64,000 nt of DNA from Geopsychrobacter electrodiphilus DSM 16401 (GTDB taxonomy: Bacteria; Desulfobacterota; Desulfuromonadia; Desulfuromonadales; Geopsychrobacteraceae), in assembly GCF_000384395.1 (NCBI RefSeq), contig NZ_ARWE01000001.1, forward strand, positions 2,888,501 through 2,952,500. The letters are read 5' to 3'. The notes beneath the pieces were generated by a model, which saw only the letters and a program-made list of their open reading frames with translations, was not told where the DNA came from and made no database searches. Below, one piece after another: positions 31,301 through 57,848 of this stretch; within the stretch, counting starts at the first letter, position 1; each line of letters begins with the position of its first letter. Both the position numbers and the translations under genes were made by a program.

Positions 31301-31759
31301 GAAACCGGCCCGTGAGCACCCGGACCATGCTTTAAACAGAAGGTAGCGGCCGGAGACATCCATGCCACACCTTGATCAGGGAAGCTGCCGCAGGCAGGCA
31401 CTGGACTACCTCCCCGCACTGCGACCAATGCCGAACGGGATGACCGGGGCGGATAGTTTGGATTTCGTCTTATATCTCACCATCAGCCAGACACCGAAAC
31501 GGCCAACCTCAAAAGAGAGATTGGCCGTTCTTATTGACCAGAGTCTCTAATAAACTACGAGTCGGCTTTATTGCAAGAGCTGCCGATATTCAGCAAGATG
31601 AAATATCGGTTGCGCTCCTCTCTTTGACTTAAGGGACTTGCCGAGTTACATTGACCTGTTCTTAAAAAGGCTGGTATCCAGGGAGTGAAGGATGGCCGCC
31701 AGCCCCCTGTGTCAGCATGGTTGTCACCTCAAACTGAAATAACAGAGGAGACAGCAAAC
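31301..31759 (+). other. non-coding gap between kup and the first hybrid kinase
   Basis: No gene. It contains repeat element A (31477-31545), which probably ends the kup transcript, and a promoter-like TTGACC / TATCCA pair (18-base spacer) near 31650-31680 in front of the kinase gene. Confidence 0.5.
31477..31545 (+). repeat. leader-hairpin repeat, copy A
   Basis: TCACCATCAGCCAGACACCG followed by a hairpin with arms AACGGCCAA / TTGGCCGTT and CTTATTGACCAGAG. The same pattern recurs six more times (B to G). It lies 177 bases after kup and probably serves as its terminator. Confidence 0.75.
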
Positions 31760-31822
31760 ATGTATCCAAAAGTCTTCCTGACCTTGATTGGTTCAAAAAC
31801 CACATCCTCACAAGAAGCATAA
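31760..31822 (+). CDS. possible 20-residue leader frame before the kinase
   Basis: ATG with an excellent ribosome-binding site (GAGGAG, 9 bases upstream) opens a 20-codon frame (MYPKVFLTLIGSKTTSSQEA) that stops 49 bases before the kinase ATG. It could be a leader peptide, a decayed start of the kinase gene in another frame, or chance. Nothing identifies its function. Confidence 0.3.
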   Translation: MYPKVFLTLIGSKTTSSQEA

Positions 31823-31871
31823 ACCCACCAAGCATTTGTTTGACGGACGAATCTCCCTGGGAGAGCTAAGA

Positions 31872-34800
31872 ATGAAGGACGAGAAACCTAACTTTTCAGG
31901 GACCGAAAGAGCTTTACTGGAAAGCCAGCGGCGGTATGAGCGCATGGCGAATACCATACCGGTAATGCTCTATGATTCCATTATTACCTCAGATAACATC
32001 AGCCGTTTTATCTATGTGGCGCCAGGTCCCTGCCGTGAAATTCTTGAACTCGACCCTGACGCCCTCCTGAAGGACATGAGCCTGGTCTGGAATATTATTC
32101 ATCCTGATGATTTGACCCGTTTTTATCAGGAGGATGTCGTTGCGAACAAGGAAGGAAAAGAGTTTTTATCCGAGGTCCGGATTATCACGCCCTCCGGTCA
32201 CCTGAAGTGGCTTCTGGTTAACTCCAAACCCAATCCTTCTAAGCCAGGAGAACCCGTCGTCTGGAGTGGTTATCTCCAGGACATCACCAAGCGCAAGCAG
32301 GCGCAAAAGGAACGGGAACAATTCTATAAGTTCTTTCAGACGTCGGCCGACCTGATGTGCATTGCCAATCCTCATGGCAGGTTCATAAAAACAAATCCTG
32401 CCTTCACCGAGACACTTGGCTATACGGAATCAGAACTCATCTCGAACGAAATTATTGATTTTGTGCATCCAGACGATAAGCAGGCAACCTTGGATGAAAT
32501 TGAAAAGCAACAACTGAGAGGCTGTACCACTAATTTTGAAAACCGCTACATCTGTAAAGATGGCCATGTAAAATGGTTGTCCTGGCGTGTTACCTATAGT
32601 CGAGAAGAGGGCGTTTCTTATGCAACAGCACGCGATATAACAGATAAGAAACAAGCAGAAGAGACCCTGCGAGAATCACGGAGCCTGCTTCACACTATCC
32701 TGGAAAATATTCCGATCCGCGTGTTTTGGAAGGATCTCGATCTACACTATCTTGGTTGCGACACTTCTTTTGCGCAATCTGCAGGCCATTCACAACCCGA
32801 AGATTTGCTGGGCAAGGATGATTTCCAGATGTGCTGGCGCGAACAGGCTGAATTTTATCGTGCCGATGACAAGCTGATTTTGGCTTCCAGGAAGCCAAAG
32901 CTCAACATCGAAAAGCAACAAACCACCCCGGACGGCCAGACGATTTGGGTACGCACTTCCAAGGCTCCGCTGTTTAATGCCGAGAAAGAGGTCATCGGTC
33001 TGCTGGGCATCGACGAGGACATCACCGAACGCAAGTTAATGGAAGAAAATCTTCAAAAACAGGCACTCCAGCTTGAAGAGGAACTCGTTAAGCGTCAGGT
33101 AGCCCAAAAAACCTTACAGGACCAGGCGGCTATACTTAAAGAGGAGATTGAAGAACACAGAAGGACGGAGGAGGCTCTCCAGAGAAGTGAAAATTCGGTT
33201 AAGAATAAGCTCAGAGCCATTCTTGAACCGGAAGGTGATATCGGCGCACTTGCACTATCTGACATCATAGATTTCGAAATACTGAGATCCATGCTGGAAG
33301 CTTTTTACAAAATAACCGGCATGTTAGGTGCTGTACTCGATCTTTCAGGCAACGTTCTGGTTGCTGTCGGATGGCAAGATATCTGCACCAAGTTTCACAG
33401 GTGTCATCCCGACACGCTCAAAAATTGCATCGAAAGTGACACAACTCTTACCAATGATGTGCCCATAGGGACATTCAAGCACTATCGCTGCAAGAACAAC
33501 ATGTGGGACATGGTCACCCCTCTCGTGGTAGGCGGAAGGCATGTCGGTAATGTTTTTATCGGGCAGTTCTTCTATGAAGATGAAATACTTGATGTGGAGG
33601 TGTTTCGGGAGCAGGCCCGGAGGTACGGTTTTGATGAGAAAGAATACCTCGAAGCACTTGATCGGGTGCCACGCTTCAGTCGAGAGGCAGCGGATGCGGG
33701 GATGGCGTTCTACGCTAAACTTACCAATATAATTTCAACTATGAGTTATAGCGCGATCAAGATGTCCAGAATGCTTAGCGAGCAAATCCACCTCGAAGGA
33801 CAGCTTCATCAGGTCCAGAAAATGGAATCAATTGGCCAGCTGGCTGGGGGCGTGGCGCACGATTTCAACAACATGCTCGGAGTCATCCTCGGCCACGCAG
33901 AAATGGCTCTTATGAAAGCGGGCCCTTCCAGCCCATTCAGCCATGATTTGCAGCAAATCAGCAAGGCGGCTCAATCTTCCGCCGACCTTACCCGGCAACT
34001 GCTTACTTTTGCCCGCAAACAGGTCATCGACCCCAAAATACTCGATTTGAATGAAGCTGTGGCGGGAACGCTCAAAATGCTGCGGCGCCTCATCGGTGAA
34101 AACATCCGGCTATCCTGGAACCCAGAAGCCAATCTCTGGCCGGTCAGAGTTGATCCGGCACAGCTGGATCAGATTCTGGCGAACCTGTGTGTCAATGCCC
34201 GTGACGCGATCGCCGGTATCGGCAAAATATCGATAAAGATGGAAAACCGCACTATGGACGAGAACGCCGCTAACGCACTTCCCTACGACGTTGTGCCTGG
34301 TGATTATGTCCTGCTGTCAGTGAGTGACGATGGCTGCGGCATGGATAAGAAGGTTCAGGCCCATATCTTCGAGCCATTCTTCACGACCAAAGAGGTCGGT
34401 GGTGGAACCGGACTTGGACTGGCCACCGTTTATGGCGCTGTCAAGCAGAATCACGGTTTTATCACTTTTTACAGCGAAGCGGAGCTGGGCACAGTATTCA
34501 ATATCTATCTTCCCCGCGCGAGTAAGACTGTTGACGCGAAACAGAAAACCGCAGAAATGCCATTTCTTCGCGGCACCGAAACAATCCTCCTCGTTGAAGA
34601 TGACGAAATGCTTCTGTGCCTGGAAACGACCATGCTCGAAGAGGGCGGCTACAGGGTACTGGCTGCCGCTACAACCGAGCTTGCCGAATCTTTCGCAAGA
34701 GAACACCCCGGCCCGATTGATCTGTTGATTTCCGATATGATCATGCCGGTCATGAACGGCAGGGAATTATCTGCCATGCTGCAACCACTTCGGCCCGAGA

Positions 34801-34958
34801 TGAAGGTCCTGTTCCTCTCCGGCTACACCGCCGATATCATCTCCAACCAGGGGGTGATCGAAGATGAAATACACTTTTTGCAGAAACCTTTCTCACTTGA
34901 AGTGTTGACGTCTAAAGTGCGGGAGGTCCTGGACGAAAGCAGAGCTATCATTTCTTAA
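31872..34958 (+). CDS. hybrid histidine kinase: PAS-PAS-PAS-PocR-HisKA-HATPase-REC
   Basis: A 1028-residue soluble sensor kinase. Three PAS/PAC units (about residues 20-140, 150-260, 265-385), a coiled coil to about 440, a PocR ligand-binding domain (about 445-635; FEILRSMLEAFYKITGMLGA, with Cys-rich CTKFHRCH), the kinase core with phospho-His H663 in GGVAHDFNNMLG, an ATPase domain (DDGCGM, GGGTGLGLATVYGA) and a receiver with phospho-Asp D955 in LLISDMIMP. No membrane segment. The ATG at 31872 has GGGAGAG upstream; an upstream TTG at 31788 is weaker. PocR domains are thought to sense small hydrocarbon derivatives. Output is unknown as no DNA-binding regulator is adjacent. Confidence 0.9.
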   Translation: MKDEKPNFSGTERALLESQRRYERMANTIPVMLYDSIITSDNISRFIYVAPGPCREILELDPDALLKDMSLVWNIIHPDDLTRFYQEDVVANKEGKEFLSEVRIITPSGHLKWLLVNSKPNPSKPGEPVVWSGYLQDITKRKQAQKEREQFYKFFQTSADLMCIANPHGRFIKTNPAFTETLGYTESELISNEIIDFVHPDDKQATLDEIEKQQLRGCTTNFENRYICKDGHVKWLSWRVTYSREEGVSYATARDITDKKQAEETLRESRSLLHTILENIPIRVFWKDLDLHYLGCDTSFAQSAGHSQPEDLLGKDDFQMCWREQAEFYRADDKLILASRKPKLNIEKQQTTPDGQTIWVRTSKAPLFNAEKEVIGLLGIDEDITERKLMEENLQKQALQLEEELVKRQVAQKTLQDQAAILKEEIEEHRRTEEALQRSENSVKNKLRAILEPEGDIGALALSDIIDFEILRSMLEAFYKITGMLGAVLDLSGNVLVAVGWQDICTKFHRCHPDTLKNCIESDTTLTNDVPIGTFKHYRCKNNMWDMVTPLVVGGRHVGNVFIGQFFYEDEILDVEVFREQARRYGFDEKEYLEALDRVPRFSREAADAGMAFYAKLTNIISTMSYSAIKMSRMLSEQIHLEGQLHQVQKMESIGQLAGGVAHDFNNMLGVILGHAEMALMKAGPSSPFSHDLQQISKAAQSSADLTRQLLTFARKQVIDPKILDLNEAVAGTLKMLRRLIGENIRLSWNPEANLWPVRVDPAQLDQILANLCVNARDAIAGIGKISIKMENRTMDENAANALPYDVVPGDYVLLSVSDDGCGMDKKVQAHIFEPFFTTKEVGGGTGLGLATVYGAVKQNHGFITFYSEAELGTVFNIYLPRASKTVDAKQKTAEMPFLRGTETILLVEDDEMLLCLETTMLEEGGYRVLAAATTELAESFAREHPGPIDLLISDMIMPVMNGRELSAMLQPLRPEMKVLFLSGYTADIISNQGVIEDEIHFLQKPFSLEVLTSKVREVLDESRAIIS

Positions 34959-34960
34959 AA

Positions 34961-35019
34961 CGCACCATCAAGCTGACACACAAAACCCCCGATCAACAGA
35001 TCGCGGGTTTTCTGATTTT
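34961..35019 (+). repeat. leader-hairpin repeat, copy B
   Basis: CACCATCAAGCTGACACAC, then arms AAAACCCCCGATC / GATCGCGGGTTTT with loop AACA. It begins 3 bases after the kinase stop and has a T-rich 3' side, so it should terminate that transcript. Confidence 0.75.
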
Positions 35020-35245
35020 TCAGGGGTTACAAGCAAGGCTCAACTGCTTCGATCGAATTCACACTCTTCATTCCATGTCGAAATATCTAGCAAGGCACTC
35101 ATCTCTTTGACATCACCTGATGACTGCGTTAGCCTGTCAAGCGTCTGATTTATATAGGTATCTGAAAATACAGGGGGGGCTTGTTTTGTCTTTCGCGGTC
35201 TAATAAATAGGGAAGCTCACAGCAACACTGCACAGGAGATGAATC

Positions 35246-35914
35246 ATGAAGATAGCCGTCATCATTGGCAGCCCGCGCGGCATGAAGGGCAACACCGGTC
35301 GCCTGCTGGAAGAAGTTCTGGCAGGGCTGAGCAAAGACGCAAAGCCCGAGTTGATCGACCTCTCGAGACAGAGAATACTCCCCTGCAACGGTTGTGACCA
35401 TTGTCACAGAACTGGAACCTGTCACCTCAAAGACGACTACGAAACCATCAAGCAAAGTCTGCTAACCTGTGACGGTTTCATCCTGGCGAGCCCCAACTAC
35501 ATCTTTAGCGTCACAGCCCAACTCAAGGCGCTGTTTGACCGCAGCGGCAACATCATTCACTGTCTCATGCTTGAAGACAAGTATGGCGCAGTCGTGGAGA
35601 CCTCCGGAGGGGGAGAAGACGATGAAGTCATTGGTTACATGGCCCGCTTCATCAATTCGACCGGTGCTCAGTCCGTTGGCGGCATTGGCTCACCCACGAT
35701 AGGCGACCGAACCTTCCCGGACGAGGAGGTCCTGTTTGATAAAGCGCGCGCTCTGGGCAGTGAACTCTGTCGCTGCATCAAGGACGCGGAATACTTCCCC
35801 GATCAGGCCGAATATCTTCTGGCCTTCAAGTCCCGCATGAAAAGACTTGTTGAATATCAAAAAGAAAACTGGACTGCTGAACAAAGTTACTGGCAGGAAC
35901 GTCTCGCACAGTGA
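35246..35914 (+). CDS. flavodoxin-fold NAD(P)H-dependent FMN reductase family protein
   Basis: A 222-residue protein of the NADPH-dependent FMN reductase/iron-sulfur flavoprotein family: IIGSPRGMKGNTGRLLEEVL binds the flavin phosphate, CNGCDHCHRTGTC near residues 50-62 has the clustered Cys of iron-sulfur flavoproteins, and the ASPNYIFSVTAQLKALFDR segment follows. The Cys group could bind a 4Fe-4S cluster. ATG at 35246 after CAGGAGATGAATC. It is likely a redox carrier; partner unknown. Confidence 0.85.
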   Translation: MKIAVIIGSPRGMKGNTGRLLEEVLAGLSKDAKPELIDLSRQRILPCNGCDHCHRTGTCHLKDDYETIKQSLLTCDGFILASPNYIFSVTAQLKALFDRSGNIIHCLMLEDKYGAVVETSGGGEDDEVIGYMARFINSTGAQSVGGIGSPTIGDRTFPDEEVLFDKARALGSELCRCIKDAEYFPDQAEYLLAFKSRMKRLVEYQKENWTAEQSYWQERLAQ

Positions 35915-35999
35915 GCACAGATAGTCACCGGTGAAGTGACCACTATCTCTTCCGCTAGCATTTTTTTTGTTTATCATCCATTTAACAGACGCCAAGGGG

Positions 36000-36031
36000 T
36001 TGACACAGGGCTTTCTTCGGGAAGATAGTAT
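36000..36031 (+). promoter_or_regulatory. promoter-like pair before the small-RNA candidate
   Basis: TTGACA (36000-36005) and GATAGT (36024-36029) with an 18-base spacer; TAGTAT at 36026-36031 is an alternative -10. Start would be near 36035. Confidence 0.45.
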
Positions 36032-36035
36032 TGAT

Positions 36036-36112
36036 TAAGAGGCAGGTTTGAACAAACCTGTTCCTTATAGGCCCGGTGACCCCCCCCCTCCGTCACCGGG
36101 CCTATTTTTTTC
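36036..36112 (+). ncRNA. candidate small RNA with two hairpins
   Basis: Between the promoter-like pair and a strong terminator lie about 77 bases without an ORF. Hairpin 1 is CAGGTTTG-AA-CAAACCTG (36043-36060). Hairpin 2 is a perfect 14-base stem, ATAGGCCCGGTGAC / GTCACCGGGCCTAT (36067-36105), followed by seven T. The layout of promoter, two stems and T-run is that of an independent small RNA. Alternatively the second hairpin just ends the flavoprotein transcript 150 bases upstream. Confidence 0.45.
36067..36112 (+). terminator. intrinsic terminator
   Basis: 14-base perfect stem with an 11-base C-rich loop and a T-run. It ends either the candidate RNA or the flavoprotein gene. Confidence 0.9.
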
Positions 36113-36119
36113 TGATTTA

Positions 36120-36182
36120 TCACCATCAATACGACATGAGAATGGCTGCCTCCAAAATGGGGTGGCCATTCTCATTGATCCG
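36120..36182 (+). repeat. leader-hairpin repeat, copy C
   Basis: TATCACCATCAATACGACAT, then arms GAGAATGG / CCATTCTC (36138-36173) and the tail ATTGATCCGCAG. It follows directly on a terminator, so this copy is not needed for that purpose. Confidence 0.7.
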
Positions 36183-36193
36183 CAGTGCCGAGA

Positions 36194-36223
36194 CGAAAGC
36201 ATACGTGTCGTTGTATGCTTTCG
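36194..36223 (+). promoter_or_regulatory. hairpin in leader of the YdhR-like gene
   Basis: Perfect 11-base arms CGAAAGCATAC and GTATGCTTTCG with an 8-base loop, 36 bases before the next start codon. No T-run, so an operator or RNA structure is more likely than a terminator. Confidence 0.45.
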
Positions 36224-36259
36224 CTCTAAAGGTTATTAAATCTTAACTGGAGGAACATT

Positions 36260-36571
36260 ATGATAACAGCCATAGCTACCTTCCAATTGCCAAAGCCAAT
36301 CACCCTCGACGAAGCGCGTAAGACATTTCTGAGCACAGCGCCGAAATATCAAGGAGTGACTGGCCTTATCCGGAAATACTATATGCTGTCCCAGGATGGC
36401 AGCACCGTTGGTGGGGTATATCTCTGGAACAGCAGAGAAGAAGCTGACGCAATGTATACGGAGAGTTGGAGATCTTTCGTGCGAGAAAAGTACGGTACAG
36501 ATCCATCAGTCACCTATATGGATAGCCCAGTTGTTGTTGACAATCTTTCGCATGAGATCATCGAGTCATAG
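36260..36571 (+). CDS. YdhR-like dimeric alpha/beta-barrel protein
   Basis: A 103-residue protein of the YdhR/antibiotic-biosynthesis-monooxygenase fold: an N-terminal strand (ITAIATFQLP), then GLIRKYYMLSQDG and GGVYLWNSREEADAMY, the usual order in YdhR-type putative monooxygenases. ATG follows CTGGAGGAACATT. A monooxygenase role is not shown by any cofactor motif, as these enzymes need none. A regulatory hairpin and repeat C precede it, repeat D follows. Confidence 0.78.
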   Translation: MITAIATFQLPKPITLDEARKTFLSTAPKYQGVTGLIRKYYMLSQDGSTVGGVYLWNSREEADAMYTESWRSFVREKYGTDPSVTYMDSPVVVDNLSHEIIES

Positions 36572-36587
36572 GGAATATTTTCATAAA

Positions 36588-36655
36588 TCACCATCAGGAA
36601 GACACACAACCGGCCAACACGAAATATCGGGTTGGCCGGTCTTATTGATCAGAGA
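36588..36655 (+). repeat. leader-hairpin repeat, copy D
   Basis: TCACCATCAGGAAGACACAC, arms ACCGGCCAAC / GTTGGCCGGT, then CTTATTGATCAGAG. Almost the same arms and tail as copy A. It lies 17 bases after the YdhR-like stop. Confidence 0.75.
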
Positions 36656-36767
36656 ATTCGATGATATTGGATCCACACAGGTTTTTAGCCTGCAAAACAA
36701 TGTGACCCATAATCCAGGCCGTTTGCCTCACGGTCAGAACACACCATCTCTCTGCAAGAGGAGATCC

Positions 36768-37547
36768 TTATACAAAGAGAGTCGGCGCTTTGGGAACACT
36801 GCAATTTTTAACCAACAGTGCGCGTTTCTCTCCAATTTTTTGATGCTTCAGCGCGCGCGCATCAAAAGCACATGCCTTGACACAAGCGCAGCACATGACA
36901 CAGCCGGCAGCATCCGTTAAGACGGAATCTGTCACACCGACCACGCCGGTCGGACAGACCTCAGCGCATTTCCCGCAAAGTGTGCATTTTTGGACCTCTG
37001 TTTCAGGCGCGATCCCACCCAGTTTCACCCGATCCTTGTAGGGCAGATTCCCCGCAATCGGTGGAGTGTCCAATTTGCCCTGCGCAATTTTTTCCGCAAT
37101 TTTCCGCCCAAACTCAAACGCGAGCTTCTGGTCCTCTGTATCGGGTCGGTCTTTGGCAATAGGGCTGGCAGGAGTCGAGTACGAATGTTCCCCGATAAAG
37201 GCACCTGCGGCGATAACCTGAAAGCCTTTCACAGTGCTGACATCGCGCAGTTCGATCAGTGCATCTTCGAACTCCCGGTTGCCGTAAAGTGCGACAAGAA
37301 TTGCAGGTACCCCCGTTGAAGTGATCTCTGCCATGCGCGTCAAACATAGTTCGGGGACACGCCCGGCATAAACCGGAACGCCGATAAGAGCAACGCCCCT
37401 GGTGATGACCGCTTCGCAGTTCGCACCCGGCAGGGTCAGGTCATAGTGAATGACCTCTTTGGCACCCAGCCCCCGAGCGATGCTTTCGGATATCTTTCGT
37501 GTGGTTCCCGTTGGGGAAAAATAGATGAGGTAGGCTTGCTCAATCAT
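36768..37547 (-). CDS. flavodoxin/ferredoxin fusion (EFR1 family)
   Basis: A 259-residue protein: a flavodoxin-like N-terminal domain with the phosphate loop FSPTGTTRKI (residues 10-19), then two 4Fe-4S ferredoxin motifs, CTLCGKCAEVCP and CVMCCACVKACA, near residues 185-235. Such EFR1 proteins pass electrons within the cytoplasm, possibly between ferredoxin and flavin acceptors. ATG at 37547 after AAGGAGCGCGA. It lies next to flavoproteins and kinases but shares no transcript with the plus-strand genes. Confidence 0.88.
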   Translation of the reverse strand: MIEQAYLIYFSPTGTTRKISESIARGLGAKEVIHYDLTLPGANCEAVITRGVALIGVPVYAGRVPELCLTRMAEITSTGVPAILVALYGNREFEDALIELRDVSTVKGFQVIAAGAFIGEHSYSTPASPIAKDRPDTEDQKLAFEFGRKIAEKIAQGKLDTPPIAGNLPYKDRVKLGGIAPETEVQKCTLCGKCAEVCPTGVVGVTDSVLTDAAGCVMCCACVKACAFDARALKHQKIGEKRALLVKNCSVPKAPTLFV

Positions 37548-37574
37548 TCGCGCTCCTTTTTTTATCTGCTCTGA

Positions 37575-37775
37575 TTAATTTGTTCCACTGTTTCTGATCT
37601 CTCGAGCGACTTGCGGGGAAAGGAGATGTTTCCCAAAGTGCTGGTAAGAATATTCTTGAAATCGTGTGCGATACCTCATACAGGCTGGATCGTATCGAGA
37701 TTCTCCGTCAAAAATAAAATCCTGCGTTTTGATGGTGTTATCTGAGACCTCAATGACCTCCCACTTATGAACCAA
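37575..37775 (-). CDS. small hypothetical protein overlapping the hybrid kinase end
   Basis: A 66-residue frame beginning at a TTG (37775) with AGAGGTG upstream, inside the last codons of the kinase gene, 11 bases overlapping. The sequence is rich in polar and aromatic residues (FQEYSYQHFGKHLL) and has one Cys; no known domain. The overlap and ribosome-binding site favour a real gene, but the start is unusual. Confidence 0.4.
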   Translation of the reverse strand: MVHKWEVIEVSDNTIKTQDFIFDGESRYDPACMRYRTRFQEYSYQHFGKHLLSPQVAREIRNSGTN

Positions 37776-40122
37776 CCAACACCTCTTGAACTTTATCGAT
37801 CAGGGTTTCAAGCGAAACTGGTTTCTGCAGAAAGAAAACTCCTTCTTCAATAAAACCTTGTTGAGAAATGATATCGGCGGTGTAGCCAGACATAAAGAGA
37901 ACCTTCATGCCTGGTCGAAGAGCCTGTAACTGTTTCGTTAGCTCCTTGCCGTTCATCTCGGGCATGATGACATCGGAAATCAATAGCGGAATCGGACCTG
38001 GGTGTCGCTCAGCCAGTGACAGGGCAACACTAGGCAGCGCGGCAGGTAGAACCGTATAGCCGCTCCCTTCCAGAATCTCCGTTTCCAGGTGGAGTAACAA
38101 CTCGTCATCTTCTACGAGCAGGATCGTTTCTTTCCCGCGCCGCAACAGTTTTGCCGCGGGTTTCTGCACGGCCTCCAACACTGTTTGGGTTCGGGGAAGG
38201 TAAATATTGAAGATCGTTCCATGCCCCGGTTCACTGTAAAGGGTAATAAATCCGTTGTTCTGCCTGACAGCTCCATAAACTGTAGCCAATCCTAAACCGG
38301 TCCCCTCACCAACGACCTTGGTGGTAAAGAATGGTTCAAAGATATGGGCCTGTACCTCTTTCTCCATCCCCTTGCCATCGTCGCTAAAAGAGAGTTGAAC
38401 GTAATCACCCGGCACCACATCAGGGTAAGAGACACAAAAAGTCTTGTCTATGCTGCTGTTCCCCGTTGTGATCGATATCTTGCCGACTCCCGAGATAGCA
38501 TCTCGCGCATTGACCGCCAGGTTGGCGAGAATCTGATCTATCTGCGAAGGGTCGACCTTGACCGGCCAGAGGCTTGCGGCGGGGTGCCAGGAGAGTTGAA
38601 TATTCTCACCGATGAGCCTCTGCAGAATTTGCAGCATTCCGGCCACGGTTTCATTCAGGTCGAGCACCTTGGGTACAACCGCTTGTTTGCGGGCAAAGGT
38701 TAACAGTTGCCGGGTCAGATCGGCGGAATGTTTGGCCGCCTTACTGATTTCCTCCAGGTGATGAAAGAGTCGATGAGAGGGATCCGCTCTCATCATTGCC
38801 AGTTCCACATGACCGAGGATGACCCCGAGCATGTTGTTAAAATCGTGGGCCACACCTCCCGCCAACTGTCCGATCGACTCAATTTTCCGGGTCTGCTGGA
38901 GTTGGGATTCGAGCTTTATTTTTTCTTCTTCGGCCCGTTTGCGCTCGGTGATGTCCCGCCAACTGGTATGGAGCATGGTTTGCCCTTTGATGGTGATGGG
39001 CATGAGAGAAACCTCGACGGTAAACACACTCCCCTCGGCGTTGATGTGGCTCCAGTCAAAACGGTGCATTCCCTTGCTGTAGGCCAACGCCACCATCTTT
39101 GCTGCAGCTTCGTCAGAACGTCGGCCGTCGGGTTGGAACTCCGGTGAAATCCGCTCAGGCGGCGAGAACAGAAACTGCTCACGTGTCATCTTGAGGAGAT
39201 CTAGCGCTGCCTGGTTACATTCCACGAAAACCCCCGTATCGTCGATCAGGAGGATGGCATCTGAGGAGTCCTCAAACAGTTTCCTGAACGTAGCCTCACT
39301 TTGGCGCAGTGCGTTCTCGGCTCTCTTGCGCTCGGTGATATCGATCCCGGAGCAGAGTACGCAGACAATCTGACCCTTTTCGTTCCGCTGCAGGACGTTG
39401 TGCCAGGAAATAAATCGGAGTTCACCTGCTTGGCAAATGATCTCATTTTCAGCATATTCTACAAAGTCCTTTTGCCCAGCCATGGCCTCGGCAAAAACCT
39501 TCTGCACCGCCGGCAGAACAGGGGAGGGAATACACAGCTTGAACCAGTCCTGTCCCAGCAGATCGGCTTGCTCGTAGCCGAGGATTTGGCAGCCGCGCTT
39601 ATTGATGAGGCGGATTTTCCCTTTCCGGTCCAACTCGAGAATCATCGCCTCGGAAATATCCAGATAGAGTTCCGCGCTTTTCTGAGCCTTTAGGGCCCGC
39701 TCTTCCGCCATTCGTCGTTCCCGAATCTTTTCCTTAAGTTCTTTGGTGCGTATTTCAATCTGCCGTTCCAAAAGTTGCTGATGCTGCTGATTAAGTCGGG
39801 ATTGGTGACGTTCCTCAAGGATTACGGCAATCATAAAGCAGAGATTGCTGATGAAGGAATGGTAGGGCTGGAACGCTTCATTACTCGAGAGGAAAAGGCA
39901 GATCTCGCCGTAATGGCTGTGATTCAGTTGGATAGGGAAATGGCGGGCTTCGTTGGTTGGTAAGATTTTTTTTCGGTCAGAAGAATAGGCGGCTTTTTCG
40001 ACGCCGGGTATTTCTTCCAAACCCCTGCAGACAAAACTGAAGACCGAATCCTGATCCTCAAGCTGAGAAATCATATTCTGCAGCAACAGGATCCGGGCCA
40101 GGGCGTGGGCATCTAATGTCAT
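37765..40122 (-). CDS. hybrid histidine kinase: GAF-like-PAS-PAS-HisKA-HATPase-REC
   Basis: A 785-residue soluble sensor. Residues 1-110 look like a short GAF-like input domain, then a coiled coil to about 155, two PAS/PAC units (about 155-275 and 280-395), the kinase core with H426 in GGVAHDFNNMLG, an ATPase domain (DDGKGM, GEGTGLGLATVYGA), and a receiver with D717 in LLISDVIMP. From the coiled coil before the His onward it is very similar to the kinase at 31872, so the two cores are paralogues. The MEDS gene ends 16 bases upstream, so it is likely the sensor partner. ATG at 40122; weak ribosome-binding site. Confidence 0.9.
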   Translation of the reverse strand: MTLDAHALARILLLQNMISQLEDQDSVFSFVCRGLEEIPGVEKAAYSSDRKKILPTNEARHFPIQLNHSHYGEICLFLSSNEAFQPYHSFISNLCFMIAVILEERHQSRLNQQHQQLLERQIEIRTKELKEKIRERRMAEERALKAQKSAELYLDISEAMILELDRKGKIRLINKRGCQILGYEQADLLGQDWFKLCIPSPVLPAVQKVFAEAMAGQKDFVEYAENEIICQAGELRFISWHNVLQRNEKGQIVCVLCSGIDITERKRAENALRQSEATFRKLFEDSSDAILLIDDTGVFVECNQAALDLLKMTREQFLFSPPERISPEFQPDGRRSDEAAAKMVALAYSKGMHRFDWSHINAEGSVFTVEVSLMPITIKGQTMLHTSWRDITERKRAEEEKIKLESQLQQTRKIESIGQLAGGVAHDFNNMLGVILGHVELAMMRADPSHRLFHHLEEISKAAKHSADLTRQLLTFARKQAVVPKVLDLNETVAGMLQILQRLIGENIQLSWHPAASLWPVKVDPSQIDQILANLAVNARDAISGVGKISITTGNSSIDKTFCVSYPDVVPGDYVQLSFSDDGKGMEKEVQAHIFEPFFTTKVVGEGTGLGLATVYGAVRQNNGFITLYSEPGHGTIFNIYLPRTQTVLEAVQKPAAKLLRRGKETILLVEDDELLLHLETEILEGSGYTVLPAALPSVALSLAERHPGPIPLLISDVIMPEMNGKELTKQLQALRPGMKVLFMSGYTADIISQQGFIEEGVFFLQKPVSLETLIDKVQEVLVGS

Positions 40123-40137
40123 TAAAGAGAGACCAAG

Positions 40138-40749
40138 TTAGTGCAAAATTTCTTGTGCGGGTACATAAAACGGATTGTGAATGACGTTACCGCGGACCAG
40201 CATCATCGGGTGAACCCTCATGACATCCATGATAGTGGCCCCATCAAAAACATGGGCATCATACTGACAAACAGCGGTCACCGGATATTTTTTCAATAGT
40301 TGATTGACTGCGGCCTCATATTCAAAAAGTCTGGAACCGCCCGGAACTTTTTGGATTTCCGAAGTCATCTCACCTATAACCCGCGCCGCAGGATAACCTT
40401 CTTGCTTGGCGTCGTTATGGAAGGTGGCAAGCAGATTCAGCATTCTTTCCGGCTCGAACCTGCCTTGATGAAAATAAACCTCCGAGGGAACGGCCGTAAT
40501 CAGATCGTTTTTGGCCCTGGCCTGATCAAGATCAATGCCATCTTCGGCAAGCAATTGACGCAATTTTTCATTATCAATTTGTTCAGAGAAGCAGGCATTC
40601 CTTTCCCTGGCCTTCAGACCGCTTGCCAGGAAGTGCAGCAGGGCGTCGTTTCGCTCATCCTCATCATTGTAAATCTGGCAGATATGTGTTCCGACGGGGA
40701 TTTCAACTTCGGCAAAGCCGAGATTAATTTTTGTTGTCTTCTGTGTCAT
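40138..40749 (-). CDS. MEDS-domain sensor protein
   Basis: A 203-residue protein matching the MEDS domain (methanogen/methylotroph, DcmR-like): GTHICQIYNDEDERNDALLH near residue 20, then FLASGLKARERNACF and a long middle part to VTAVCQYDAHVFDGATIMDV. MEDS domains are predicted to bind small hydrocarbon-type ligands or their derivatives; there is no helix-turn-helix here, so it acts through another protein. It precedes the hybrid kinase by 16 bases in one operon, which makes it a likely input unit. ATG after GGAGAAGAGAT. Confidence 0.85.
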   Translation of the reverse strand: MTQKTTKINLGFAEVEIPVGTHICQIYNDEDERNDALLHFLASGLKARERNACFSEQIDNEKLRQLLAEDGIDLDQARAKNDLITAVPSEVYFHQGRFEPERMLNLLATFHNDAKQEGYPAARVIGEMTSEIQKVPGGSRLFEYEAAVNQLLKKYPVTAVCQYDAHVFDGATIMDVMRVHPMMLVRGNVIHNPFYVPAQEILH

Positions 40750-41268
40750 ATCTCTTCTCCATAGAGTCGAGGATGCGTGAAAAACTTGAAATTTTCATCA
40801 CTGCAGACAAGTCGAAATCTATCAGGGGGAGAGTCTAAACACAACCTGATAAACGCTGGTCTTCCGCTAGCAGTTTTGAATGGCATCACTCCCGATGGTC
40901 AGATCCCCTTGTCTCATTTCACAAATTTTCAGTCAAAAATCATTTTCAAATATCCTTGGAATTTTTGACAGATAGATGGGCTGTCATATAAATCACCATC
41001 AGTCAGATACTAAAACGGCCAACCTCAAAAATGGGGTTGGCCGTTATTGCCTGGCAGGGAATTTGATAACCATGGTTCGGAGGGTTGTTCACCATCAATT
41101 ATTAATGAGGCCAATTGATTAGACGATTGTTGATGTATTTTTCTGTGGGACGACTCCTCAGGCTAAAGAAACCACTGCAAATTGAAGACAGCTCGAACTT
41201 GTTTCATTCCTGTCCTTAGGCTAGATTGTTGTGGCCGTGTTGCAGCAGGAGACATAAGGAGCAATTAA
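40750..41268 (+). other. 519-base gap between divergent MEDS and Cache-kinase genes
   Basis: No gene. The left part should hold the promoter of the MEDS operon (a weak TTGTGT / TAGATT pair, 17-base spacer, on the minus strand). Repeat copy E is at 40993-41057. The right part leads to the next kinase; I see no clear promoter. Confidence 0.5.
40993..41057 (+). repeat. leader-hairpin repeat, copy E
   Basis: TCACCATCAGTCAGATACTA, arms AACGGCCAACC / GGTTGGCCGTT, then ATTGCCTGGCAG. It is the only copy not placed after a plus-strand gene, since it lies between two divergent genes. Confidence 0.7.
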
Positions 41269-43035
41269 TTGCCAATTCCTAAATTTTCAAATTTGTCCAT
41301 ACGAACTCAGTTGATAGTCTTGGCGGTCCTGCTGACACTCCCGGCCCTGGGAATAATCATTTATTCGGGACTGAAGGAACGTTCTATTGACTATCAACAT
41401 GCTGTCGTTGAATCTCAAAAACTAGCCGAAAATCTGGCGGCAAAGCAGGAGATTCTGACAAACGAAGCTAAACTGTTGTGTACTCTATTGGCAGGGCTTC
41501 CTGAGGTTAAGAGCCATGATGTTGATAAACTGCAAGCCATTCTTGCCGACATCCACAAACAAAGTTCACAATATATCAATATCCTGGTTGCTGATGCTGA
41601 AGGACATGTGTGGGCTTCCGCGCTTCCATCCGCTAAAGATGAATCCATAAAGGACAGGCGCTATTTCAAGAGTGCTCAGCAAACAAAAAAGTTTTCTTCA
41701 GGCGAATTTGTCATCAGCCGGTCGGTGTTGAAACCCACACTTCATATGGCATATCCTCTCCTTGACCATGGTGAGTTCGATGGTGCGATTATTCTCGGGT
41801 TTGATCTTGATGTCATGCGGACCATCCTTGAACGTGCTCAATTGTCTTTTGATACGAACTATGTCCTGGTTGACCATAACGGAATTATTGTCAACAGAGG
41901 GAAAGAACCGGGCCTGCTCATTGGGAAGCCCATCCCCGCCGATACGTTGAAATACATGGAAGGTGGCCCTGACCAAGATACTTTTAAATTTATGCGCAGG
42001 GATGCGAGTCACCGTATTACAACCTATCGCAAATTGTGGCTCCCCGGTGAACAGAAGCCCTACATGTACGTACGCGCGGGGATAGCGGAAAAGGACGTTT
42101 TGTCCGCCTCAAATAGAGCGCTGGTTATCAATTTATCAACTCTTCTGTTCTTTGTTGTGCTCTCATTCCTATTGGCTTTCTTCATTGGTAAGCGCTCGAT
42201 AGTTGACCGAATCACGGTTCTCAAGCGCGCCTCGCAACGGTTGGCGGGCGGCGATCTCGATATCAGGGTCTCCAGTCAGATTTCAGGAAGTGAGCTGGGA
42301 AGCCTGGCCGAGACGTTCGATTCGATGGCACAGGAACTCGGAGCGCGAGAAAAATCCCTGCAGGTGGCAAACCACGAACTCGAAGCCTTCAGCTATTCCC
42401 TTTCTCACGATCTGCGTTCTTATCTGACGCGCATCTCGTTAGCCGGAGAAACCTTACAAGCCTTAGATGGTGAACATTTAAGTCATGAAGGCAAGTACTG
42501 CCAGCAGACGATCCTCGATACATGCCAGGGCATGAATGGCCTCATTACCACGATGCTGACCCTGGCTCACATCTCCCGACAGGAGTTACGACTCGAAGAG
42601 GTCGACTTGAGCCGTTTGGCTGAAATAATTTGCGCTGAGCTTGCCTTGACCGAACCCGAACGCACCTTGAATTTCGATATCAGCCCCGGCCTGCAGGTCA
42701 CCGGTGATGCAGCCTTGCTGCGCGTGGCGTTGGAAAATCTGCTGGGCAATGCCTGTAAATACACCAAGGGGAAAGCGGAGGTCCATATCTCCCTGAGCGC
42801 CAAGCAGCAAGAAGGTCGGCAGGTCTTTGCTCTCGCCGACAACGGCATTGGGTTCGATATGGAGGAAGCAGGCGCACTTTTCCGCCCCTTCAAACGCCTT
42901 TCCAGTTCACAGGCATTCTCCGGACTCGGCATCGGACTGACCACCGTTGAACGCATCATCAAGCGGCATGGCGGCGAAATTTGGGCCGAGGCTGTGCCCA
43001 ACGAGGGGGCAACCTTCTTCTTCACTATTTCATGA
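41269..43035 (+). CDS. membrane sensor histidine kinase with Cache domain
   Basis: A 588-residue inner-membrane kinase. Membrane segment 1 at about residues 14-32, a periplasmic Cache-type domain (about 35-280, with DRRYFKSAQQTKKFSSGEF), membrane segment 2 at about 284-306, HAMP (about 308-360), the His region with H380 in YSLSHDLRSYL, and an ATPase domain (DNGIGF, FSGLGIGLTTVERI). There is no receiver. It begins at TTG 41269 after AAGGAGCAATTAA. The His-box type differs from the two hybrid kinases. No response regulator is adjacent, so it may signal to one elsewhere. Confidence 0.9.
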   Translation: MPIPKFSNLSIRTQLIVLAVLLTLPALGIIIYSGLKERSIDYQHAVVESQKLAENLAAKQEILTNEAKLLCTLLAGLPEVKSHDVDKLQAILADIHKQSSQYINILVADAEGHVWASALPSAKDESIKDRRYFKSAQQTKKFSSGEFVISRSVLKPTLHMAYPLLDHGEFDGAIILGFDLDVMRTILERAQLSFDTNYVLVDHNGIIVNRGKEPGLLIGKPIPADTLKYMEGGPDQDTFKFMRRDASHRITTYRKLWLPGEQKPYMYVRAGIAEKDVLSASNRALVINLSTLLFFVVLSFLLAFFIGKRSIVDRITVLKRASQRLAGGDLDIRVSSQISGSELGSLAETFDSMAQELGAREKSLQVANHELEAFSYSLSHDLRSYLTRISLAGETLQALDGEHLSHEGKYCQQTILDTCQGMNGLITTMLTLAHISRQELRLEEVDLSRLAEIICAELALTEPERTLNFDISPGLQVTGDAALLRVALENLLGNACKYTKGKAEVHISLSAKQQEGRQVFALADNGIGFDMEEAGALFRPFKRLSSSQAFSGLGIGLTTVERIIKRHGGEIWAEAVPNEGATFFFTIS

Positions 43036-43043
43036 CTGGTACC

Positions 43044-43103
43044 TCACCATTAGTGACACAAAAAAGCCCCCGCCTGTAAATACAAGCCGGGGCTTTTCTG
43101 TAG
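43044..43103 (+). repeat. leader-hairpin repeat, copy F
   Basis: TCACCATTAGTGACACAA, then arms AAAAGCCCC / GGGGCTTTT. It begins 8 bases after the kinase stop and has the form of an intrinsic terminator. Confidence 0.75.
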
Positions 43104-43310
43104 GTTTTCCGTATGTGGGGGGGCAGATTCACCTCAGGGTTAAAAGCACGCCCATCATCAGAATATTCATCTCAAAACGCATAATTGCTGTGGCGAGCAT
43201 GAGCGCTTTGCCGACCTCACTACCGCTGCCTCTTCGACAATAAAGACAAGGCCCCCAGTTTACAAAACCCGCTTGCAGCGACTTAACGCTGACGGCCAAC
43301 CGGGCGACCG

Positions 43311-44507
43311 TTACTCTTCGGTATGCACGGTGCTGGCAATCTGCTCGGCGAATTTGCGACAGCTTTCGAGATTCTCGGCCGTCGGCGTAAAGCGGAAGGA
43401 GATCCCCTCGGCGGCAAATTTGTACTTGAGGCCGGTGAGACGCTGCTCGACCATCTTGACAGCCTCGCCGCTCCAGCCGTAGGAGCCGAAGACCGCTGCA
43501 ACCTTGGATTTTGGGGTAACCGACGAGATCAGTGCCAGGGCGTGCCAGACCTGCGGCGGCGCGTCACGTTGAATCGTCGGGGTGCCGATCACCAGGACAT
43601 CCGCCTGCTCCAGGGCATTGCGATAGTCATCATCGCGCATATCACTCAGGGCAAAGCCGACGACGTCAAGTCCTTGCGCCTTAAGTTCAGTCGTAATCAC
43701 ATCAGCCATATCCCGCGTATTCCCATGGGAAGAGAGGACCGCCAGCAGGGCCTTCGGCCTGCCGCCGACTGGTGGAGCAACCGACCAGCGTGCGTAGGAC
43801 TCAATCGCGAAATTGCCCGTCGAACGGCGCACCGGACCGTGAGAAGGACAAACCATACGGATCGGCAGATCCTTGATCTTGGCCAGGGCGTCGCGGACCT
43901 TATCCTTGAAGGGGCGCATGATGCAGTCGAAGTAAAAATGGAAATCAGCCTGGAAATCGGCAATTTCGTCGTCAAACAGCTGATCGGAACAAAAATGCGC
44001 GCCAAAGGCATCGCAGGGAAAGAGGATTTCGTCCTCGACCAGATAGGTGAAAATCGTGTCCGGCCAGTGCAGGTAGGGCGCCAGGATAAAGCGCAGCTTG
44101 CGGCCACCCAGATCAATTTCATCACCATCATTAATGATCTGACTGTTGAAGTCGCGATTGAGCAACTGCTTGAGGAAATTCTCGCCGGCCTTGGAACAGT
44201 AGACCAGGATCTGCGGATTTTTCTCCAACAACAACGCCAGAGAGCCGGAATGGTCCGGCTCGGTATGGTTGACCACCACCGCGTCTATCTTGTCGATGGC
44301 GACATGCTCTTCGACTTTACGGAAGAATTCTTCGGAAAAGCACGCTTTGACCGTGTCGATCAAAATGTTCTGCTTGCGCCCCTGAATCAGGTAACTGTTG
44401 TAGGTCGTACCGTTATGGGTCGGGAAAAGATCGTCAAAAACCTTGAGTTCCGGGTGGCGCACGCCGACCCAATGCAGCTTATCGGCAACCTGAATAGAGT
44501 GTTCCAT
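43311..44507 (-). CDS. A-type flavoprotein (FprA/flavodiiron family)
   Basis: A 398-residue cytoplasmic enzyme that reduces O2 to water and/or NO to N2O. The N-terminal metallo-beta-lactamase domain has the diiron ligands NHTEPDHSG (near residue 80) and the later His (PSHGPVRR), and the C-terminal flavodoxin domain starts near residue 250 (AVLSSHGNTRDMAD). There is no fused rubredoxin, so it needs an external donor. The flavin and diiron motifs are complete. It fits an oxygen-sensitive host. ATG at 44507, near GGAGG some 16 bases upstream. Confidence 0.92.
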   Translation of the reverse strand: MEHSIQVADKLHWVGVRHPELKVFDDLFPTHNGTTYNSYLIQGRKQNILIDTVKACFSEEFFRKVEEHVAIDKIDAVVVNHTEPDHSGSLALLLEKNPQILVYCSKAGENFLKQLLNRDFNSQIINDGDEIDLGGRKLRFILAPYLHWPDTIFTYLVEDEILFPCDAFGAHFCSDQLFDDEIADFQADFHFYFDCIMRPFKDKVRDALAKIKDLPIRMVCPSHGPVRRSTGNFAIESYARWSVAPPVGGRPKALLAVLSSHGNTRDMADVITTELKAQGLDVVGFALSDMRDDDYRNALEQADVLVIGTPTIQRDAPPQVWHALALISSVTPKSKVAAVFGSYGWSGEAVKMVEQRLTGLKYKFAAEGISFRFTPTAENLESCRKFAEQIASTVHTEE

Positions 44508-57811: not shown

Positions 57812-57848
57812 TCACTATCAGTCAGAAACAGGGTGGGTTATCCCACCA
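57812..57848 (+). repeat. leader-hairpin repeat, outlying copy G
   Basis: TCACTATCAGTCAGAAACAG followed by GGTGGG-TTAT-CCCACC. The leader is near that of copy E (TCACCATCAGTCAGATAC). It lies 14 kb from the other copies, between a plus-strand gene and the convergent coaE stop. Confidence 0.5.

Follow-up and report, generated by a model that had tools for sequence, protein, structure and literature searches.

Integrons are, to our knowledge, the one well-known natural system that gathers single genes at hairpin sites, in rows of uniform direction; their integrase cuts at the cores of the attC sites, and the second attC core is RYYYAAC (R''). REP sequences (RAYT/Y1 transposases) are short dispersed extragenic hairpins with a conserved unpaired flank, intrinsic (Rho-independent) terminators are made up of an A-rich stretch, a GC-rich stem and a T-rich tract, and dif/pdif modules are Xer recombinase sites with inverted arms around a short spacer. 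For the integron attC core, an excerpt of PMC8876359 gives GTTRRRY (R').

The sites described here can be compared with each of these systems. As in integron attC arrays, hairpin-forming sites with conserved flanking boxes stand in one-way rows behind accessory genes, in mosaic arrays whose blocks are bounded by sites, and arrays of attC sites that have no integrase are alike in this; however, the family has a long conserved unpaired leader and lacks the GTTRRRY/RYYYAAC core, its units often hold more than one gene, and no linked intI was found. The short dispersed extragenic hairpin and the conserved unpaired flank are shared with REP/RAYT elements, but here the stem varies with its pairing kept, the rows run one way and there is no Y1 link. 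The succession of A-rich stretch, GC-rich stem and T-rich tract, mostly behind genes, is that of intrinsic terminators, whereas here unrelated loci have a common leader, tail and second box, and the site direction is kept where genes run opposite. The tail also resembles dif/pdif modules in its inverted TTCTTA and TAAGAA arms round a short spacer, but a hairpin and a leader are attached to it and a single orientation holds throughout a row. Within the literature searched, which comprised openings of abstracts together with passages of PMC8876359 and PMC2267715, no published description of such sites was found.

The best reading of these sites is that they are boundary or recombination sites of gene-cassette arrays, and probably transcription terminators also. 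The family of directional boundary sites is itself unusual and well supported; with barely better than even confidence, we regard six sites, A to F, as members of such a family, marking gene-cassette-like arrays in Geopsychrobacter's order. They lie in a 64,000-nt stretch of DNA (G000:C1:2888501-2952500, hereafter the window) of a genome that consists of one contig of 4.24 Mb. The bit scores given with the features below come from covariance model R2 and are no independent evidence for A to F, because these six were among the sequences used to build both of our covariance models.

Site A, 31467..31545, plus strand: 5' box, leader 31477-31494, hairpin 31498-31529, T-rich tail CTTATTGACCAG; 78.9 bits, fold z -4.4; a KUP gene ends 167 nt before
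Unit A-B gene, 31788..34958, plus strand: PAS/PocR hybrid histidine kinase (Pfam)
Site B, 34952..35027, plus strand: leader 34962-34979, hairpin 34982-35011, tail CTGATTTTTCAGGGG; 58.2 bits, fold z -2.9; the kinase gene ends at 34958 and the leader begins 4 nt on
Unit B-C gene, 35246..35914, plus strand: NADPH-dependent FMN reductase family (Pfam)
Site C, 36110..36186, plus strand: leader 36120-36137, hairpin about 36136-36175, tail TCATTGATCCGCAG; 61.6 bits, fold z -2.5; a strong terminator lies directly before
Unit C-D gene, 36260..36571, plus strand: ydhR-like mono-oxygenase, slightly below the Pfam cut-off
Site D, 36578..36656, plus strand: leader 36588-36605, hairpin 36609-36640, tail CTTATTGATCAG; 77.2 bits, fold z -5.3; the ydhR-like gene ends 17 nt before the leader
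Unit D-E, three genes, 36768..40749, minus strand: Fe-S protein, hybrid kinase and MEDS-domain protein (Pfam)
Site E, 40983..41061, plus strand: leader 40993-41010, hairpin 41014-41045, tail ATTGCCTGGCAGGG; 81.5 bits, the top score in its genome, fold z -5.1
Unit E-F gene, 41269..43035, plus strand: dCache/HAMP histidine kinase (Pfam)
Site F, 43034..43107, plus strand: a divergent copy whose leader is shorter; hairpin about 43062-43097; 34.0 bits, E 0.0045 (whole genome), fold z -2.9

All six sites fold better than shuffled sequences (z -2.5 to -5.3), and both D and E are on the plus strand while the three genes between them are all on the minus strand. The 14 kb holding A to F has no counterpart in the genus relatives among the matches listed, kinase-domain paralogues and short repeats aside, which makes this stretch accessory DNA. 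The flavodiiron gene at 43311-44507 is present in all eight genus relatives; the match at their flavodiiron loci ends at 43307-43311 in four of the eight and at 43334 in a fifth, the other three being cut by contig ends. The strong terminator before site C (36071-36113) has matches of 89-95% in 8/8 genus relatives (twice in G005) and at G000:3117237, and so appears to be one copy of a terminator that is conserved. Upstream of the first kinase gene, 31703-31807 is another dispersed repeat, with copies of 84-91% in G000, G001 and G007 and no Rfam match; an Rfam scan of the window at gathering score gave no matches.

The preliminary description of this DNA had proposed that A to F share a leader, and they are indeed real, homologous elements. 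With at most three mismatches, the 18-mer leader occurs at 31477, 34962, 36588, 40993 and 57812, that is, five times against 0.13 expected, a number reached in none of 100 shuffles; this pattern misses C (36120) and F (43044), both of which are scored by R2. The arm said to be common to A, D and E was found as well (CGGCCAAC). The weaker seventh copy suggested at 57812 had to be given up: it is a leader-like 18-mer that has no hairpin and tail of the family type and does not appear among the model matches in this genome at E<=0.1. The notion of a family confined to one 12-kb region also fell, once the covariance search that the same description had called for was run on the genome; that of a copied, terminator-like family was right.

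Two covariance models were used, R1 built from 11 copies and R2 from 99. At E<0.01, R2 finds 32 copies in the 4.24-Mb genome, of which 24 have another copy within 15 kb and eight are solitary, with clusters at 429-439 kb, 651-665 kb, 2.92-2.93 Mb (A to F), 3.13-3.14 Mb, 3.87 Mb and 3.92 Mb. Across the order, sites are found in 64/136 genomes (R2, E<=1e-4); extending the search to 277 genomes of the class returned the identical 64 and none beyond the order, and a sample of 247 genomes of the phylum contained two positive ones, both from the same family as G. electrodiphilus. Within the genus the R2 count per genome spans 0 to 25, and the looser search (R1, E<=0.01) gave a match in 52 of 60 relatives. 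An exact-pattern scan of one genome per species, 84,980 species in all, which covered the commonest hairpin type alone, returned 11 stretches, from Geobacteraceae and deltaproteobacterial MAGs, Geopsychrobacter, two Shewanella MAG contigs and one place in Methylovorus, the last a weak match of 32.5 bits; a pattern limited to that hairpin type had no exact match in viral contigs. Thus far, sites of this family have been seen nearly exclusively in a single order of bacteria that reduce metals and sulfur. The two contigs of Shewanella sp. MAG-BB-1 (L199 and L200) carry very good sites, of 91-92 bits, and are possibly mis-binned.

A typical site runs from a 5' box through the leader, an A-rich stretch, a GC-rich hairpin and a T-rich tail to a TRRGAAT box, and some copies carry only part of these elements. 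The 5' box is about TTCYYATAAAT and the leader consensus is TCACCATCAATCAGACAC (profile of 105 sites having the anchor), while the tail consensus is TTCTTATTTATCAGG with TRRGAAT five bases further (profile of 87 sites having CAGG). CAGG is present in 87/177 sites, with TRRGAAT at a fixed distance after it, and the remaining sites have other tails. Copies are about 80 nt long, with a mean column identity of 58% among 77 of them. The observation that the leader stays conserved while the hairpins differ was upheld by the profiles and by pairing statistics: what is conserved is the sequence in the leader and the T-rich tail, and the pairing in the hairpin. Among 99 copies, in an alignment that had been fitted to the model and so favours structure, stem positions pair in 92.2% of cells, against 69.1% in shuffled and 26-54% in slid controls, and double changes number 267 against 77.

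Our structural claim is limited to this inner stem, since the outer parts are without covariation. The site consensus folds as a single long imperfect hairpin, and the outer boxes are complementary in consensus at 7.2 of 12 pairs against 5.2 when shuffled (81 sites), with no covariation within sites. Pairing of leader with tail is not measurable: of 146 sites, 46% fold better in native form than with a shuffled leader. A possible middle stem is marginal, its covariation score being reached by 17 of 500 shuffles. The cassette-circle prediction that the 5' box of a site matches the right box of the one before it failed (no match, 38 pairs, p 0.37), and comparison with the right box of the same site gave p 0.07. 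Leader-tail and 5'-box/right-box pairings thus looked promising by eye and were rejected when shuffles or permutations were not beaten. From its form and position, the hairpin with its T-rich tail is likely to terminate transcription of the preceding gene. In the tail, CAGGGT is flanked by the arms TTCTTA and TAAGAA, an arrangement which we take to resemble a tyrosine-recombinase core. At L161:4773-4866 a single hairpin has a leader-like stretch at either side, so that the site can be read on both strands; two sites may have been joined here in inverted orientation.

The direction of the sites within a row had been overlooked in the preliminary description. In a set of 190 sites there are 89 neighbouring pairs within 15 kb (median spacing 1.5 kb), and 88 of them point the same way (88/90 once a hairpin-only partial site is included); direction is uniform in 41 of the 42 loci with neighbouring sites. 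In comparison, the genes upstream of the paired sites agree in strand in 54/80 cases (Fisher 8e-9, the pairs not being independent), and in 25 pairs the sites agree while the genes disagree. Because sites agree so much more often than the ORFs upstream of them, site direction seems to be a property of the array rather than of the gene. Taken singly, a site shares the strand of its upstream ORF in 134/173 cases and that of its downstream ORF in 93/167 (ORFs within 1 kb), the upstream ORF lying a median of 80 nt before. One-way rows irrespective of gene strand suggest that the sites mark the limits of arrays and are not mobile terminators that have been scattered. Repeated one-way sites between different genes, as in a gene-cassette array in the wide sense, are therefore what was found, the units between sites often holding more than one gene.

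Homologous blocks within and between genomes, at 75-98% identity, also point to the sites. In 33 alignments of at least 200 bp and at least 75% identity, 16 of 57 non-edge ends fall at a site against an expectation of 3.5 (at most 11 in any of 2000 draws), an enrichment that is an upper estimate, because the draws ignore gene ends and similar sites attract alignment ends. This bears out, in spirit, the earlier suggestion of gene-plus-tail units, in that blocks end at sites beyond random expectation. The ends often lie in the tail, near CAGGGT. In L151/L164, L149/L150 and L145/L161, gene and site are common and divergence begins in or just after the tail; in L096/L266, L251/L253, L097/L100 and L093/L104 the start of the unit is common from the tail on and the upstream sequence differs, one partner having a site where the other has a partial one, a remnant or nothing recognisable as a site (in L266, L253 and L104 the join lacks a recognised full site). 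By analogy, this tail-type break is the integron pattern. A break at the 5' box was seen as well: in L090/L093, L092/L098 and L091/L095, and in the five loci listed below, different hairpins come after one and the same upstream sequence, and in L090/L101 and L152/L163 the common block starts at the 5' box. In two 5'-box breaks the common part seems, by eye, to finish in what was the tail of an earlier site. The 5'-box break is beyond what a single crossover point explains.

Several smaller observations concern these junctions. At five loci in three genomes (L094:4449-4570, L097:3670-3792, L101:6934-7060, L144:4660-4777 and L160:4141-4265), the site comes directly after a conserved stretch of some 100 nt, and the hairpin type is different in each. 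A gene-less 217-bp unit, from CTAGTAAGAC to the tail TTGTTTTGC, occurs twice in the genome of G. electrodiphilus, 21 kb apart and 98% identical with differing flanks; it has a TAAGA box at its start, a truncated leader and no site tail before it. No empty-site pair or excised circle was found in the genomes compared.

As block comparisons lead us to propose, a unit would consist of one or a few genes with a site behind, and units would be joined by recombination in the tail, at about CAGGGT. The hairpin with its T-rich tail would also end transcription of the gene before. More tentatively, and with less than even confidence, these could be the products of a second, integron-independent cassette system, in which a putative dedicated site-specific recombinase joins and separates genes at leader-hairpin-tail sites into one-way arrays, the same hairpin ending transcription of the cassette. 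If true, this would suggest that the same array strategy arose more than once, outside integrons, would explain part of the accessory gene content of metal- and sulfur-reducing bacteria, and could provide a new chemistry of cassette assembly.

Near-site proteins and counts of Y1 transposases, Phage_integrase matches and IntI revealed no recombinase that tracks the sites. Y1 transposase counts, compared by eye in 25 genomes, do not follow site counts (11 in the site-free G029, one each in the site-rich G021 and G059), the site-rich G307 has just three Phage_integrase matches, and an integron integrase above cut-off is found in 10/30 site-bearing and 15/30 site-free genomes (25/60 of the order overall), and is thus missing from 20 of 30 site-bearing ones, several of which are incomplete MAGs and one of which, G059, is a single contig. 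The one tyrosine recombinase examined near sites, of 549 aa at L278, resembles ordinary island integrases. As movers, integron integrase, Y1 transposase and Phage_integrase were accordingly set aside, for want of an association or of a consistent neighbour.

The failure to find a recombinase agrees with an explanation by repeat-mediated shuffling, in which lineage-specific terminators with a protein-binding leader recombine through RecA between repeated copies and so swap genes. The hairpin with its T-rich tail and the nearest upstream ORF on the same strand (134/173, median 80 nt) are as it predicts, and recombination between direct repeats preserves one direction; but copies so short (about 80 nt) and diverged (58% identity) are poor RecA substrates, several breaks are located in the tail and site direction is more consistent than gene strand, and we think this explanation rather unlikely. 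Less likely again is a mobile hairpin of REP or MITE type, which would be inserted downstream of genes by a transposase acting in trans. The dispersal of the repeats, each a hairpin next to a conserved unpaired flank, would suit it, as would one upstream stretch preceding five different hairpin types and a 124-bp version of the site (L097:3792-3915 and L155:2494-2616, 93% identical) that has inverted ends (GTCC..GGAC, in full GTCCKATAA and TTATAGGAC) and neither flank alike; yet one-way direction in 88/89 pairs is unexpected for independent insertions, Y1 counts are uncoupled from site counts (G029 against G021 and G059), and the shared blocks extend beyond the hairpin to include entire genes up to the boundary.

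Boundary sites of cassette arrays could also be degenerate attC sites of ordinary integrons, without an integrase, as the array logic is identical and an integrase is present in 25/60 genomes of the order. This we consider very improbable. The cores occur near their background of about 3% each (RYYYAAC in 9/190 sites, GTTRRRY in 2/190, both together in none), although the strict core pattern also detects only two of five attC-like sites at L181. Moreover, there is no positive association between sites and IntI, and the genome has a separate integron at L181 (G000:C1:24000-34000), whose attC-like sites (CTAACGGT..GGTTAG) are unlike the leader-hairpin family; the IntI of this genome, at 28 kb, adjoins this other kind of site. 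The integrase frame of the L181 integron is apparently interrupted.

The sites stand between diverse genes, as judged by Pfam matches of the proteins near them. Three genes of the window array are kinases, and the preliminary description had linked the elements to duplication of kinase genes, a part of its gene-plus-tail proposal that proved weak. In a survey of near-site proteins elsewhere, which covered 196 of 251 ORFs (88 plus 108), kinase domains make up a small part: HATPase_c was found in 3/88 and did not rank with the 25 most frequent families in the remaining 108, and eight further near-site proteins scanned included one kinase. Defence genes near sites belong to 10 families, with one protein each, among the 88. 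The two hybrid kinases of the window have a common 1.15-kb block (33784-34932 and 37776-38921, 71% identical, in inverted orientation), which ends before reaching site B in the one and has no site behind it in the other; duplication linked to kinases is not supported. An additional copy of this block, at 81%, lies elsewhere in the same genome.
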